DNA from: Bacillus sp. SJS
GTDB taxonomy: Bacteria > Bacillota > Bacilli > Bacillales > Bacillaceae
DNA: 64,000 nt
Direction of reading: 5' to 3'
Assembly (NCBI RefSeq): GCF_000732485.2
Contig: NZ_JAQV02000003.1
Coordinates: 1-64,000, forward strand
Below, in pieces: positions 9,787-36,881 of the stretch. The translations under genes were made by a program, and so were the position numbers. A model generated the notes under the pieces. The model was not told the origin of the DNA. It searched no databases and worked only from the letters and a program-made list of their open reading frames with translations. Positions within the stretch are counted from its first letter, which is position 1, and every line of letters starts with the position of its first letter.

Positions 9787-10170
9787 TCATTTCTCTTCCT
9801 GCTTTTCTTCTCTTACTCTTAGCCAAGTTCGAATTTCAGCAGCCGTTGCAGTTGGGTTCTCCATCTGAAGAACAACCAGCTTGTATTTTGGATGGCCATC
9901 CAGCTCCAGCTGAAGCAGAGGTCCTCTCCCGCTATAGGAAAGAAAATACCATTCATCCCTGTATTTAAAGCTCTCTTCATAAATATGGAGAAAGGATATA
10001 GATGTCCCCGGCATCCTCAGCATCCATCTTGGAGCTTCAAATTGATCTACATAGACCTGGCTGATTGTTTCGAAAGGAATGCCGAGATTCATTTTAAAGG
10101 CGAAAAATCCGGTGAGGCCAGTTAAACGAACAACTGCTTTGTCTTTTTTCAGTTCTATGATTCTTCCCAT
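9787..10170 (-). CDS. Hypothetical cytosolic protein
   Basis: 127 aa from ATG 10170 (MGRIIELKKDKAV); a GTG at 10182 is the alternative, and neither has a strong ribosome site. No signal peptide or membrane span. Alternating short hydrophobic stretches (AVVRLTGLTGFFAFKMNLGI, KLVVLQM) suggest a beta-rich fold, possibly PH-like, and a charged C-terminus RTWLRVREEKQEEK. I do not recognise the family. Codon use is like the neighbours. It stands alone between the SDR gene and the CoA-transferase genes. Confidence 0.6.
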   Translation of the reverse strand: MGRIIELKKDKAVVRLTGLTGFFAFKMNLGIPFETISQVYVDQFEAPRWMLRMPGTSISFLHIYEESFKYRDEWYFLSYSGRGPLLQLELDGHPKYKLVVLQMENPTATAAEIRTWLRVREEKQEEK

Positions 10171-27965: not shown

Positions 27966-28172
27966 ATGCAAAGGGAATGGCTCGAGAAAATGCTGAACCG
28001 TGCCTTCAGGCAGTATGGACGCGACTTAGAGGAGCACCCGCTTCCCGAAAAAGAAATGGCTTCATTTATGAAGGATATAGAACATATAAAGGATGAGGAA
28101 ACGGAATATTACGAAGTTATGGAAGATCTCGTGTATGAATATATGGTGAATAAGGATGACTGCAGGTTCTAA
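27966..28172 (+). CDS. yqzH: YqzH family protein
   Basis: 68 aa from ATG 27966, 9 nt after AGGTGA. Acidic helical protein (WLEKMLNRAFRQYGRDLEEH; YEVMEDLVYEYM). Position next to the polYB unit matches YqzH of B. subtilis. Function unknown. Ends one base into the next frame, so it likely forms an operon with the DinB-fold gene. Confidence 0.75.
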   Translation: MQREWLEKMLNRAFRQYGRDLEEHPLPEKEMASFMKDIEHIKDEETEYYEVMEDLVYEYMVNKDDCRF

Positions 28173-28192
28173 TGCGAAGCAGGGGTGATGAA

Positions 28193-28732
28193 ATGAGTCT
28201 GGGAACCGTGTATCTCAATGTTGTGATCAACCGCTTTAAAGCTGTAAAAAACTTAGGTGACCGGGCAATGGAGCAGTTGAATGCACAGGATTTGCATTGG
28301 AAGCAAAACGAAGAAACAAACAGCGCTGCAATCATTGTCAAGCATATGAGCGGCAACATGGTGTCCAGATGGACCAACTTCTTCACAGCAGACGGTGAAA
28401 AACCGGACCGCAGCCGTGAGCAGGAATTCCTGAACGATCTGGGAGATAAAGCGGCTGTCATGCAGGTTTGGGAAACCGGCTGGAATGTATTGTTTCGTAC
28501 ACTGCATCAGCTTACGGAGGAAGATTTGCTAAAAGAAATCTATATCCGGGGCGAATCCCACATCGTGTTGGAAGCAATTGAAAGGCAGATGGCCCACTAC
28601 GCGTATCATACTGGTCAAATTGTACACATTGGAAAGGAACGGAAGGATGCAGCGTGGAAAAGCTTGAGTATACCGAGGGGAGAGTCGGAAACTTTTTTGA
28701 AGGAAATGCTTGAGAAACATCGGAAGAGCTGA
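28193..28732 (+). CDS. DinB-fold protein (DUF1572)
   Basis: 179 aa from ATG 28193 (MSLGTVYLNVVINRFKAVKN) behind AGGGGTG. Four-helix DinB-like fold with the metal-binding histidines in IVKHMSGN and in MAHYAYHTGQIVH near 128-140. DUF1572 subgroup; enzymatic role unknown (relatives include bacillithiol/mycothiol transferases). Confidence 0.82.
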   Translation: MSLGTVYLNVVINRFKAVKNLGDRAMEQLNAQDLHWKQNEETNSAAIIVKHMSGNMVSRWTNFFTADGEKPDRSREQEFLNDLGDKAAVMQVWETGWNVLFRTLHQLTEEDLLKEIYIRGESHIVLEAIERQMAHYAYHTGQIVHIGKERKDAAWKSLSIPRGESETFLKEMLEKHRKS

Positions 28733-28757
28733 AGCTTGATTGGATGCTGCAGACAAT

Positions 28758-29015
28758 CTTCTTTTTCCGGCCGGTATCTGGCCTTTTCCAGCCGGCCGCC
28801 TTCTCTTTCCGGCCAAAACCCACACGATTCCAGCCGTTCCGCCTTCCTTTCCAGCCAAACTTCTTTTTCCAGCCGATACCGACCCTTTTCCGGCCGGCCG
28901 CCTTATGTTTCCAGCCAAAACCCACATGATTCCAGCTGTTCCGTCTTCCTTTCCAGCCAATCTTATTTTTCCAGCCGGTCCCGTCCCTTTTCCAGCGGCC
29001 GGCCACAATCTGTTT
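28758..29015. repeat. 102-bp minisatellite built from 21-bp subunits
   Basis: About 2.5 copies of a unit that starts CTTCTTTTTCC at 28758 and 28860 and CTTATTTTTCC at 28962: exact 102-bp period. Inside each unit the core TTCC(A/G)GCC recurs at 21, 21, 21, 21 and 18 bp. All spacings are multiples of three, so several frames stay open on both strands; the resulting low-complexity peptides lack ribosome sites. GC-rich against AT-richer flanks. Confidence 0.85.
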
Positions 29016-29056
29016 CCGGGCTGAAAATTTTCCACACCCTATACTAATCCACATAA

Positions 29057-29087
29057 AAAAACCCGTACCAATACAGGTACAGGTCCT
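29057..29087 (-). terminator. Terminator of acetyltransferase gene
   Basis: Minus-strand CCTGTACC/GGTACGGG stem followed by T7. Confidence 0.75.
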
Positions 29088-29099
29088 TCTTCTACCATT

Positions 29100-29618
29100 T
29101 TATTCAGCCTGCAGCGCAACCCACTCTCTCCGCAGAATCCCCATCACAATGCGGTCAAATGCTTTTCCGTCTCTGAGGACGGTTTCCCTCAGCCGTCCTT
29201 CTTCTTTAAAGCCTGCTTTGCGGTAAGTACGAATGGCTGGTTCATTGTATGAAATCACATCAAGTCCAACACGGTTCAGATTCAGCTCGTAAAACGCGTA
29301 TTGGAGAAGCAGCTGAAGCGCTTCAGCACCGTAGCCTTTTCCACGGTGTTCTTCCTCGCCGATTCCGATGGCAAGGAGGGCGCATTGATTATTCCACTCG
29401 ATGCTGTGAAGTGCGGCAAATCCGAGAAGCTGATCTTCTTCATTTGTTCTGATCCTGAATTCAAGTGCTTTTGAAGGCGATTCCGGAACCTTTGGAAAAG
29501 CGTAATCGGTATCGACCATTCTCAGGTAATGACTGTTTCTCCAAGTTTTCATTTCCTCAATATCTGAACTTCTAGGCGCTGCAAGGCTTATAGCTGTTCC
29601 AGTAAATAAATCGATCAT
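29100..29618 (-). CDS. RimJ/RimL-type GNAT acetyltransferase
   Basis: 172 aa. GNAT core with acetyl-CoA loop IGEEEHRGKGYGAEAL and C-terminal NLNRVGLDVISYNEPAIRTY followed by KAGFKEEGRLRE, typical of the RimJ/RimL/SpeG-like subgroup. Target unknown. Monocistronic. Confidence 0.87.
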   Translation of the reverse strand: MIDLFTGTAISLAAPRSSDIEEMKTWRNSHYLRMVDTDYAFPKVPESPSKALEFRIRTNEEDQLLGFAALHSIEWNNQCALLAIGIGEEEHRGKGYGAEALQLLLQYAFYELNLNRVGLDVISYNEPAIRTYRKAGFKEEGRLRETVLRDGKAFDRIVMGILRREWVALQAE

Positions 29619-30255: not shown

Positions 30256-33200
30256 TTATTTTCCTGGCCATACATCCTTCGCAAATCGCCCCTGCTGATG
30301 AAGATCAGCAAGCCAAGCGGCCGCCTCTTCCTCTGAGGCATTTTTTACTGCCTGGTAACTCTCTTTCAAAGCCCCTTCAACGTTCGGCGCCATTTTACTG
30401 CCGTCCCCGCATATATAGAGGTGTCCATTTTTCTCCAAAAGAAGGGCAATCAGCTTGGACGCATGTTCTTTAATCAGTTGCTGCACGTAAATTTTCGCGC
30501 TGCCTTCCTCACGGGAAAAGGCGGTGTGCAAAAAGACAAGCCCGTCCTTTTCCGCTTCCTTTAGCTCCTGCTCATAAAGAAAATCGTGTTTGCTGTTTCT
30601 GCAGCCGAAATAAAGATGGGCAACACCAAGCTTGCAGCCTTGCTCCTGAAGAACACGGCGTCCCTGGAGAAAGCCTCTGAATGGTGCAACTCCGCTGCCC
30701 GCCCCGACCATGATGATCGGCGTCTCCGGATTCGCAGGGCGTTGGAAGCCGTTTAGCGGTTCTCTTACGAAACATGCAACCTCGTCTCCCGGCAGCAAAC
30801 CGGCAAGATAGCCAGATGAGACCCCCTTGTATTCCCCAGCACCGCTCCATGCTTGCTCCTTCAATACGCTGACGGTCAGGCTGACTCTGCCGGGGAACTT
30901 ATCCGGGGAGCTGGAGATGGAATAATAACGGGGCTTTAATGCAGGAAGCATGCCAATGTACCGCTCAAACGAGAGCTCGCACGCCATGTATTTTTCCAAT
31001 AGCTCAAGAATTGAAATTCGTTTAGCCAGGATGTCCTCCTGGTATCTATTTAGCATGGCCTCAAGCTCAACCTTATGAGGAGGACAAACTGTAGCCTCCG
31101 TGAGGGCTTTAAGCTGATTTCTTGTCACAGGGTGCTGCAGCTCCACACATGCTGAAAGCAGCTTTCGAACTTCAATGGGCTGGCCCATAGGCAAGTGAGA
31201 AGCTCCTTCTCCTTTAAGGACAACCGTTTCCCGGCCGGATAGACGAAAACGGCGGAGCACGCGATTTACGGATTCAGGACTGTTGCATGGCAGGATTCCG
31301 ATATGGCCCCCTTCCCTGTAGTTCACATCTTTCGGCAGCGAAATTTCAATGTAACGGGTACTTCTGGCGCTTAAAGACGACTGCAGCTCCTTATTTACCG
31401 CGATCTTCGCTGCAAACGCCTTGTACACTTCTGCCATGGGGGCCAGGGTGTCGCCGCTTACAAATTCCACGGTCAGTTTATCCGATTCCTCTAAGCTCTC
31501 AGCCTGAAGCTCTATGTGAAAATGGGAGGCAAGTGAAGGCCATAGCTCACGTTCCCATTCTTTGTATTCTCCATAAAGATCCGTGTCTGCATCTCCTTGA
31601 CCAAGTCTTGCAATCCGAAGTGCCCCTTTTTCCTCAAGCTTCTGATCAATATAGACAGGAATTCGCTGATAGGTAGCGGACCAGCTTCGGTCTCCGCAGC
31701 CAAAGACTGCAAAGGCCACCCCACTCATTTCCGCTGCATTTGCCTCAGCCACCCAGCTGATAAACTTCCTTGCATGATCCGGCGGGCTCCCGTTATAGGA
31801 AGAGGAGATGATGATGACAGCCCCCTGATTCGGCAGCCTGCACACGAAATCATCGAGCGGGCCGATTTTGACTTGAAAACCGAGGCCGGCCGCCCTTTTC
31901 GCCAGCTGTTTAGCGAGCCCTTCCGAGGTACCCATATTTGAACCATAGAGAATAAGAAGCGGGGACCCGTGTGAGTTCTCTAATTTGGATTGAATAGACG
32001 GAATTACTGATTCTTCGATAGACTTTTCCATATCAGGAGCGGGACCAATCCATTTCTTTCTCGTTTTAACCTTCATGGTAAACCCGTTCGGCTTCCAGCT
32101 AAGAGTCTCTTTGATATCAAGCTGATAATCTGTATGATCAATGAAGTCAAAATGCTTCAGCAGCAAGCCGAGGACCAGCGTGGCCTCATGAAGGGCAAAC
32201 TGCTGTCCGATACAGGCCCGCTGGCCGTTTCCAAAAGGTTTGAACGCATGGGGGGGAATCGTGCTCATATCCTCAAATCTCTCTGGCGTAAAGTCGGCTG
32301 CATCGTCGCCCCATACACTTTTATCACGGTGGAGCCGGGGAATCAGAACGGTTACTTCCTGTCCTTTTTCAAGCGCAAATCTCCCGCCGATTACTTCCGG
32401 TTCTTTGGCGTAAAGGGAAATAGCGGGAGCTGTAGGCCAGAGGCGAAGCGTTTCATTTAGAATCATTTGAACATATTTCAGTTTTTTAACCTCTTTATAT
32501 GTTGGGACAGACGATGTTAAAACGCGGTCCGCTTCCTCCTGAGCTCTTTGCAGCACGTGTTTATTCTTAAGAAGCAGGTAAAAAGCAAAAGACAGAAGAC
32601 CGCTTGTTGTTTCATGGCCGGCGATTAAAAATGTAAGGATCTGAAACCGGATGTTCTCATCGTCAAGCAGCTCCCCCGTCTCGGGATCCGTGTTTCGAAG
32701 CATGCGGGACAGCAGATCGTCTGCCCATTCCGCTTCCGGAAGCCGCTTCCTCTCTTCAATCACTTGATCGACCAGATTAAACATTACCTGGATGTGGGCC
32801 TGAAATGACGCTTCTTTCTCTGCAAACAGCGCGGCCTCTTTTTTTGAGCGTATGAGCTTGCTCATCGCATCACTAAGAGCTGCTCCCATGCTTTCTATGA
32901 AAGGATGGAATTGCTCGCGATAAAAGCTGTTGAACCGGTAGTTAAAACCGCAGAGACCGATTGTATCCAAAGTCAGCCTCGTCATATCTTCTGATACATC
33001 AATTGAATCTCCCTCATTCATACGCTCCCATTTTTGCAAAAGCTGGACCGCAATGTCGATCATCATCGAATGATAGCCTTTCATCGCCTTTTGACTGAAG
33101 CATGGAAGAAGAATATGATGAGCCTTTTTCCAATTTGGCTCATGCGTCCAGCTTGTAAAAAGACCATCTCCCGATAACGGCCGGAGGTTTTGCAAGGCAT

Positions 33201-33423
33201 GGCTCACGCTTTTATCAAAACGGGATTCATCGAATACTTCTGAGGCAAGCTTATGATTCGAGATGAAAATTGTCGCATTTTTGGGCCTGTCGAATTGAAA
33301 AATAGGCCCTGCCCTTTCCGATACTTTCATAAGGGATTGAACCAGTTTTTCAGGGTTCAGCACCGGCCGGGCATGATTGGAACTTTTCAGCTCAAGCTTT
33401 GGAACACGGCTTCGCGGTGTCAT
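30256..33423 (-). CDS. Bifunctional P450/NADPH-P450 reductase, CYP102A copy 1
   Basis: 1055 aa, the size of P450 BM3. P450 domain 1-~470: I-helix AGHETTSG near 268-275, ExxR in NETLRLWP, heme-binding [10 protein letters not shown] with Cys near 404, and the substrate-gate Phe in [11 protein letters not shown] flavodoxin domain from about 490 ([14 protein letters not shown]), FAD/NADPH domain to the end ([36 protein letters not shown]). Self-sufficient subterminal hydroxylation of fatty acids. Has its own upstream region and lacks a Bm3R1-type operator, unlike copy 2. Confidence 0.95.
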
Positions 33424-33710: not shown

Positions 33711-36700
33711 TTATTTGCCTGCCCATACATCCTTTGCAAAACGGCCTTGCTGCTGAAGGTCAGCGAGCCATTTTTCTGCGTCTTCTTCAGAAGCATTTTT
33801 TTCTGTCTTATAGCTCTCTTTCATAACCGTTTCCACATCCGGAGCCATTTTGCTGCCATCTCCGCATATATAGAGGTGTCCCTTAAGATCAAGAAGCGAT
33901 ATTAAATGGGGAGAATCCTCTTTCATCAGATGCTGAACATACGTTTTGGCCATGCCTTCCTCACGAGAGAAAGCGGTATGAAGGGTTACCAAGCCATCCT
34001 TCTCCGCGTCAAGGAGCTCCTGCTCATACAAATAATCGTGCTCTCTCGCTCTGCACCCGAAATAGAGATGGGCTTCTCCGAGCTTGTATCCCCGCTCCTT
34101 TAAAGCACGCCGTCCCTGTAAAAACCCTCTAAAAGGAGCAATTCCCGTACCAGGGCCTACCATAATGATTGGCGTTTCAGGATCCGCAGGACGTTCAAAA
34201 CCGCTTTGAGGCTCTTTGACAAAACACGTTACCCGGTCTCCCGGGAGCAAGCGGGCAAGATAGCCAGAAGCGACTCCATTGTATTCACCCGTTCCGCTCC
34301 AAGCCGTATCCTTTAATACACTTACCGTCAGGCTCACTTTTTCAGGAGACATTTCAGGTGAGCTGGAAATGGAATAATAGCGCGGCTTCAGTGATGGAAG
34401 CAAATTCAAGAACTGTTCAAACGGAAGTTCACATGCCATGTATGTTTCCAAAAGCTCGAGCATCGTTACCCGTTTTGCTAGTATTTCTTCCGGATAATTG
34501 GCGAGCATTGCTTCAAGCTCCATGCGATGCGGCGGACAAACATTTACAGCAGCCAGTATTTTAAGCTGTGATCTCGTGACCGGCTCTTGAAGTTCCACAT
34601 ATTTGGAGAACAGCTCCCGAACTCCAATAGGATGACCCTTCGGCAAATGGGAGGTGCTTGCTCCTTCCCCATTCAAAAGAAGCTGTTCCTGTCCATTCAA
34701 GCGGAAGCGGCGCAAAACACGGCTGACGATCTCCGGGCTGTTTTTAGGAAAAATTCCAATGTGCCCGCCTTCTTTATAACCTATGCCCTCAGGCAGAAGT
34801 AATTCAATATGGCGGGTGCTGCGCCCGCTTACTTCAGATTGAAGCTCTTTTGCCGCACTTACTTCAGCTGTAAAAGCGTTATAGGATTCGGAAAGGGGGA
34901 CAGCCGTTTCACCTGTAACAAATTCTACTGACAAACCTTCACCTGCCGCAGGTTCTTCCGCAGGCAGCTGAACTCTAAAATAGGAAGCAGCGGATGGCCA
35001 AAACTCTTCCTGCCACGCTTCATAATCCCCATCAAAATCAGCGTCTGCATCTCCTTCTCCCTTCAGCGCAAAGCGGATGGCGCCTTTTTCTTCTAAAGTC
35101 CGGTCAATAAGATCGGGAATACGCTGATACGTACTTGCCCAGTTGCGGTCCCCGCAGCCGAATACCGTATATTGCACACCCTTCACTTCATCCGAATCTG
35201 CTCCCCTCAGCCATTCGGTAAACTTCTGGGCGTTGTCAGGAGGATTGCCGTTGTAGGACGCGGAAAAAATAACAACCGCGCCTTCCCGAGGCAGTCTTCC
35301 CGTATATTCATCAAGCGGAGCGGCTTTTGCATTGAAACCATACCTTACCCCTTTTTCTGCAAGCTCCATTGCCAAGCCTTCGGATGTACCCATATTTGAG
35401 CCATACAGAACGAGCAATGGTGTTTGATGAGCATTCTCTGGAAGCTTAGAGACAGCCTCCTTCTTGTTTGCTTTCATAGATCCCTCTGGCTGTACAGCAA
35501 AGCCCATCCATTTTTTTCGGGAGTTCACCTTCATGGTAAACTGATTTGGCTTTAAGGTGAGCGTTTCTTTCACATCCAGCTCATAGCCGGTATGATCTCT
35601 AAAATTAAAATGCTTTAGGAGCAGCCCCATGACGAGGGTGGCTTCATGAAGAGCAAACTGCTGGCCGATACAGGCGCGCTGCCCGTTTCCGAACGGTTTG
35701 AAAGCATGCGGAGGAATCGTGCTCATATCCTCGAACCGCTCAGGCTTGAACTCTTCGGCATCTTCCCCCCAAACGGAACGATCGCGGTGAAGCTGCGGAA
35801 GGAGAACGGTTACTTCCTCTCCTTTTCCAATGGAATACTCTCCTCCAATGACTTGATCCTCTTTCGCATAGAGGGAAAAAGCAGGAGCGGTTGGCCAAAG
35901 TCTAAGTGTTTCATTTAGGATCATCTGAACATATTTCAGCTTCTTGACCTCTTTGTAGCCTGGAACAGAATCCGTCAAAACACGGTCGGCTTCTTCCTGC
36001 GCCTTCTTTAATACGTCTGGATTTTTCAGCAAATAATAAAAAGCAAAGGATAGCATACCGCTCGTGGTTTCATGGCCTGCAATGAGGAACGTGATAATCT
36101 GGAATCGGATATTTTCATCACTTAGCCCTTCCCCTGTTTCCGGATCCTTGCTTCTCAGCATGTGGGAGAGGAGATCGTCTGCCCATTCCTGCTCGCGCTG
36201 TTCTTTCCGTTCCTCAATGAGCTGGTCAACCAGACTGAACATGGATTGAATGTTTTGCTGAAAAACTTCTTCTTTTTCTCTCAAAAAAGCTTCATCCGTT
36301 TCCGTACGCTGAAGCTTGCTCATTGCTTCTCCAAGAGCACCTGTCATACTCTCAATAAATGGATGGAAGTTTTCCCTATAGTAGCTGTTGAACCGGTAGT
36401 TAAATCCGCAAAGTCCGATTGTATCAAGCGTCAGTCTTGTCATATCTTCGGAAACATCTACAGCGTCACCGGCATTCAGCCGCTCCCATTTTTGAACGAG
36501 CTGAATGGCTATGTCGGCCATCATATTATGGTAGCCTTTCATCGCTTTTTGGCTGAAGCTTGGGAGCAGGATATTGTGGGCCTTCTTCCAATTCGGCTCA
36601 TGCGTCCAGCTTGTAAACAATCCATCTCCTGAAAAAGCACGGACATTTTGAAGTGCCTGACTTACACTTTTATCAAACCTTGTTTCGTCTGAAACCTCCG

Positions 36701-36881
36701 CAGCAAGATCACGTCCTGACAAATAAACCGTTGATTGCGATGGTTTTTCGAACCGGAAAATGGGCCCCATTTTTTTAGCGATTTCCATAAGTGACTGAAC
36801 AGGTTTGGCCGGATTTAGAAGCGGAAGATGTCCATAGTCTCCCTGAAACTCCGGCATTGGAATTTTGCTCGTCGTGGTCAT
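33711..36881 (-). CDS. cypB: Bifunctional P450/NADPH-P450 reductase, CYP102A copy 2
   Basis: 1056 aa. Same domains as copy 1: gate Phe89 (FTSW), I-helix GHETTS 269-274, ExxR in NETLRLWP, heme Cys404 ([10 protein letters not shown]), FMN domain from about 493 ([14 protein letters not shown]), FAD/NADPH domain with [16 protein letters not shown] and [11 protein letters not shown]. 27 bp behind fatR and therefore in the fatR operon, like cypB (yrhJ) behind fatR in B. subtilis; de-repression by fatty acids is expected. The two copies are extensively similar along their whole length. Confidence 0.95.

Follow-up and report, generated by a model that had tools for sequence, protein, structure and literature searches.

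A dispersed intergenic repeat of Bacillus with a constrained nine-nucleotide core, a two-turn period and an orientation tied to replication

The window analyzed here, a 64,000-nt stretch of Bacillus sp. SJS DNA, carries a tandem array between two convergent genes. On the left lies a DUF1572/DinB-superfamily gene (28172–28732, plus strand), whose stop codon falls about 32 bp before the first core of the array, and on the right a GNAT acetyltransferase gene (29100–29618, minus strand), directly downstream of which stands an intrinsic-terminator-like hairpin (29061–29078, minus strand); both genes are outside the element. Measured by its cores, the array spans 28764–29021 on the plus strand and holds 2.5 units of 102 bp, while Tandem Repeats Finder places it at 28750–29001 (period 102, 2.5 copies, 85% match, 0 indels, score 371), starting in the tail of a preceding unit (28750–28763, plus strand; CAGACAATCTTCTT) that resembles the end of a fifth core plus the short spacer. 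The first unit (28764–28865, plus strand) has cores at 28764, 28785, 28806, 28827 and 28848 and ends in a 9-nt short spacer, AAACTTCTT; the second (28866–28967, plus strand) has cores at 28866, 28887, 28908, 28929 and 28950 and the short spacer AATCTTATT; the third is partial and degenerating (28968–29021, plus strand), with cores at 28968 and 28989 and a decayed core at 29013. The exact core TTTCCRGCC starts at 28764, 28785, 28806, 28848, 28866, 28887, 28908, 28950 and 28968, and weaker cores (ATTCC...) stand at 28827 and 28929, giving spacings of 21, 21, 21, 21 and 18 bp, followed by the same series again. Eleven exact cores occur in the whole window, nine of them inside the array, against 1.7 expected and a maximum of five in 100 shuffles. 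The initial annotation had described copies 102 bp apart, each with five TTTCC(A/G)GCC cores at just these spacings, and both statements are borne out. Elsewhere in the window, two adjacent genes on the minus strand (30256–33423 and 33711–36881; 1055 and 1056 aa) resemble fused P450-reductase paralogues of the CYP102 type, a reading made by eye from their translations.

But could the array be a heptad-repeat coding sequence, relic or live? The initial annotation had raised a relic as an alternative, and open frames do run through the array on both strands: the AGK-like minus-strand frame it pointed to is present (ORF 28529–29035), the spacings of the window array are multiples of three, and the variable core position falls at the wobble position of proline in an FPA frame. 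However, no array frame tested, the AGK-like frame included, matched Pfam or NCBIfam. Spacer changes are flat over the three codon phases (0.159, 0.161, 0.179), and within the core constraint is stronger at the wobble positions 3 and 9 (6.8%) than at position 6 (17%; P 0.001). The claim that all spacings are divisible by three is true of the regular stretch of the window array and not of the family, whose sister arrays include frame-breaking spacings of 17, 19 and 20 bp and whose counterparts in other genera keep a 20-bp period. With no codon rhythm in the spacers and a 20-bp period in other genera, the coding-relic idea fails; we reject it on these grounds, together with the constrained wobble positions, the frame-breaking spacings and the missing family match, and consider a coding origin hardly credible. 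As a separate observation, long open frames rich in AGK, GWK and FPA cross the array at 28512–29054 (minus strand) and 28740–29047 (plus strand); gene callers may label such array-spanning frames as hypothetical proteins, and annotations of this kind elsewhere may flag these repeats.

The window repeat is no lone minisatellite but belongs to a dispersed family. In the source genome (G000), BLAST and pattern searches located about 14 array sites at unrelated intergenic places with a common core and 102-bp plan, a count that rests on core searches and may miss arrays with other cores. This intergenic, non-coding family has the core TTTCCNGCC every 21 bp, five per 102-bp unit, with one spacing of 18 bp; in nearly all arrays of the genome the unit consists of four 12-nt spacers and one 9-nt spacer, and when the arrays are aligned core by core the consensus of the 9-nt spacer is AAACTTNTT. 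Spacers are common to the units within one array and differ from array to array, and spacings in sister arrays extend to 24 bp. The sites lie between predicted genes, one apparently pasted into a former gene, and convergent (for instance L187, by gene calls), divergent and tandem contexts are all found. Since every gene arrangement occurs around the arrays, no common regulated gene hints at a function. Collections of plasmids and phages gave no match to the window array. Adjacent to one array of the source genome (C15 near 364.2 kb; L190, 10169 onward) we noted a second array type with the core ATTTRGCC (ATTTRGCCGTTCC), oriented like the neighboring TTTCC array, with spacings of about 21, 21, 21 and 39 bp that by eye appear to sum to 102; a decayed copy is present in a congener (L273, G001).

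Comparison of adjacent units sets the core apart from the spacers. The eight fixed positions of the inner cores differ at 58 of 1176 comparisons (4.9% per site) and the spacers at 391 of 2352 (16.6%), a difference with a Fisher P of about 1e-25, to be read with the reservation that the compared pairs of units overlap and lack full independence. Core conservation is somewhat inflated because array detection uses core matches; partial controls for this bias are the restriction to inner cores and position 6, which is unscored in detection and behaves like spacer (25 of 147 differ, 17%). When arrays within a single genome are set side by side, 0.56 of spacer sites differ, against 0.08 of fixed core positions. 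Position 6 is A or G in about 95% of cores in the two strains of the species (G000 and G103) and mostly T, G or C in a more distant congener (G002), where the change covers orthologous arrays too and is thus concerted across loci. Such concerted change of the core at unrelated loci would fit either a reader common to them or recent exchange of sequence among them.

The history of the arrays can be followed in relatives. The second strain of the species, with a flank identity of about 98–99%, carries the same array sites on a chromosome-sized contig, and copy number differs between the two strains at most sites, largely by whole units: the window site has 12 cores in G000 and 17 in G103, and other sites have 29 and 14, 23 and 18, 21 and 37, 20 and 30, and 23 and 28, with some sites equal. 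Variation and conservation between strains, the joint absence of which the initial annotation had held to count against the element, were both found. Congeners carry arrays at part of the same sites. The closer one (G001, about 90%) has no array at the window site, with 127 bp in place of about 350 bp, nor at several other sites, whereas the window site of the more distant G002 holds 49 cores; in the genomes G003 and G004 the search gave no core arrays. The arrays are dispensable, because the window site of G001 is empty and G003 and G004 yielded no core arrays, and the differences among strains and congeners mean that arrays are gained or lost at fixed places. One such gain is visible in contig C18 of the source genome (L182, 9903–10060), where a piece is 89% identical to the window array and the next 74 bp are 86% identical to its terminator flank, so that the hairpin copy moved with the array. 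The counterpart in G001 (L275, 2200–2460) is uninterrupted sequence that looks like a gene; about 130 bp were lost locally at the insertion, which is present in both strains of the species. We read C18, from these alignments, as a single copying event of the window-locus array and flank with local deletion.

These observations speak for a minisatellite family that is neutral or selfish and involves no host protein, in which arrays would expand and contract by slippage and disperse by replication-linked template switching, would last in a single orientation because the other would be unstable at the fork, and the core would be kept as microhomology for slippage and switching. Copy-number changes between strains, largely by whole units, the loss or absence of arrays at orthologous sites, the duplicative insertion with deletion at C18 and the occurrence of arrays in all gene arrangements are what such a family would show. 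Against it stand the likeness of cores between arrays whose spacers have widely diverged, the shortness of nine base pairs of homology for homogenization, as is generally known, and the recurrence of a 20–21 bp spacing over many genera with different cores.

How widely the arrays are spread depends on the core that is asked for. The exact core gave array matches confined to two genera among 397 genomes of the order; the contig scan with this core returned mostly scattered matches in unrelated phyla, and the Bacillaceae-type matches were those followed. A relaxed core, TTTYCNGNC, found arrays in 12 genomes out of 249, which represent 11 of the 106 genera sampled (about 10%), a count that includes a probable coding repeat (L300, G198) and one genome unconfirmed by second scoring (G174). 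The cores of these arrays are mostly lineage-specific, for example TTTTCAGCC, TTTTCGGGC, TTTCCGGTC, TTTTCTGTC and TTTTCGGTC, and their mean spacings are 20.1–21.1 bp, with 20 bp the rule in some other genera. Pentamers with a super-period of 102 bp (G275) and of 103 bp (G116) come from two other families, one each. The arrays with lineage-specific cores may be called related in the sense of likeness in core and period, which does not imply descent from one ancestor. In L300 (9846–10022), an almost perfect 21-bp repeat lies beneath a 198-aa frame of the opposite strand; it is likely a coding heptad repeat with no relation to the family.

The orientation of the arrays is tied to replication and runs nearly always one way. 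Here, the replication strand is taken from the GC skew of the array flanks and not from mapped forks. In the window, GC skew is negative throughout and the array lies on the plus strand. Complete chromosomes show the rule directly: in the second strain, the arrays before about 2 Mb are all on the minus strand and those after it all on the plus strand, with a switch in the sign of the skew at 2.0–2.3 Mb. The strand with TTTCC is C-rich and lagging at each of the 14 sites in the species, at two more in G002 and at 25 of the 27 from other genera, hence at 41 of 43 in total. The probability of this outcome is about 1e-10 if orientation were random and about 3e-6 under a 65% lagging lean, the average of permuted motifs, by which composition alone would favor the observed polarity; both values are guides only, as sites derived from each other do not count as fully independent and the skew is small at a few sites. 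The two exceptions are the probable coding sequence L300 and L307 (G037, 9881–10036), the latter an apparently non-coding array that runs against the rule. Transcription does not explain the polarity, since at four sites (L302, L304, L118 and L288) both neighboring genes run along the TTTCC strand and the array nonetheless keeps to replication, as do the arrays at convergent and divergent sites.

Two transcript-level explanations meet this result. In the first, the GGCNGGAAA strand would be transcribed and folded, with a role in termination or in the stability of mRNA. In the window array, the minus strand does fold better than shuffles (z −4.9), and the mean over the arrays of the source genome is z −2.5; however, the arrays of G002 lack excess structure (mean z −0.26), tandem repetition itself biases folding z-scores, and the four sites with both genes on the other strand keep the replication polarity. 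The window array has no match in Rfam, and structure that is strong there and not across the family leaves an RNA-level element improbable. The second, a Rho/rut terminator with the C/T-rich strand as transcript, was rejected because the genes lie on the opposite strand at most tandem sites.

A polar guide for a DNA translocase or recombination enzyme, comparable to KOPS, SRS or Chi, would account for the strict polarity of the arrays and for the purine-rich GGCNGGAAA on the leading side. Isolated TTTCCNGCC outside arrays, however, are unbiased (52 lagging versus 45 leading in 1.46 Mb sampled), permuted motifs already average 65% lagging, and the motifs AGCGG (Chi) and GAGAAGGG (SRS) of B. subtilis do show skew in the same sequence. 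The idea is rejected for single motifs, as isolated cores are not skewed, and we regard such a guide as very improbable overall. Because isolated cores are non-polar, the polarity belongs to the array.

We tentatively favor, at a little short of an even chance, a STAR-like dispersed repeat whose core is read by a putative protein on one face of the helix and whose polarity is set by replication. The core would then be the recognition sequence of a putative sequence-specific DNA-binding protein. Bound on the same helix face and in head-to-tail order, this protein would form a polar nucleoprotein patch, and the orientation rule could arise in either of two ways: the patch may work, or be tolerated, only when it faces the passing fork in one of the two directions, or new arrays may be made by fork-linked copying that keeps their polarity. 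The reading is preferred because of the core constraint, the two-turn spacing over many genera and the concerted change of the core. The phased protein-binding array imagined in the initial annotation gains from the same core constraint, the 20–21 bp period across genera and the concerted core, but none of our searches turned up a known or proposed core-binding protein. The neutral, replication-shaped minisatellite is a serious contender that we rank close behind the core-reading protein, because the arrays are dispensable, are found in all gene contexts and lack a known partner. A further-reaching and rather unlikely extension is a candidate Bacillales chromosome system, in which a protein would read polar two-turn arrays on both arms, each with one and the same orientation toward the fork, and the core would co-evolve with it by lineage; if true, it might act, for example, as a distributed trap for backward-running forks or as a set of direction markers. 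Dispersed intergenic repeats, STAR elements among them, have been without known function since their first description; the family brings together three testable signs, namely a constrained core, helical phasing and an orientation tied to replication and not to genes. If the core has a binding protein, the arrays would amount to a new DNA element of chromosome scale in Bacillales; without such a protein, they would be a clean natural case of replication direction shaping the birth and survival of tandem repeats.

Finally, we would like to place the arrays among known systems. CRISPR arrays are unlike them, as the spacers here recur with the 102-bp unit and are not unique, and so are REP/BIME elements, as the core is non-palindromic and the sole inverted-repeat pair found in that region has no relation to the unit. 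With bacterial VNTR minisatellites they share a tandem copy number that differs between strains, largely by whole units, and they depart from them in a conserved core common to unrelated loci and a fixed orientation to replication. Plasmid iterons and iteron-like centromeres are head-to-tail sites about two helical turns apart, bound by protein on one face; the arrays resemble iterons as direct repeats at a period of about two turns (mean spacing 20–21 bp), yet they occupy about 14 chromosomal sites, and the window site is flanked by DUF1572 and GNAT genes, with no replication or partition gene beside it. KOPS, SRS and Chi are skewed single motifs whose orientation is tied to the direction of replication, a feature the family shares, except that only its arrays are polar and single cores are not. 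Searches of the open-access literature yielded no description of the core, the 102-bp period or strand-oriented intergenic repeats. The earlier statement that no described element is like this one stands for core, spacing and polarity and gives way for the general plan, which resembles the STAR elements of Staphylococcus (PMC3532100). In S. aureus these have the core TNTGTTGNGGCCC, spacers of 40–44 bp and 1–7 copies, and they combine a short GC-rich core, intergenic dispersal, locus-specific spacers and strain-variable copy number with no known function; the word 'orientation' is absent from the text of that paper (PMC3532100). The family shares the short GC-rich core, dispersal over about 14 intergenic sites, the locus-specific spacers and the strain-variable copy number, but has TTTCCRGCC, or GGCYGGAAA on the other strand, every 21 bp, a 102-bp pentamer and a replication polarity. 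As core, spacing and polarity differ, the array is not a STAR element.
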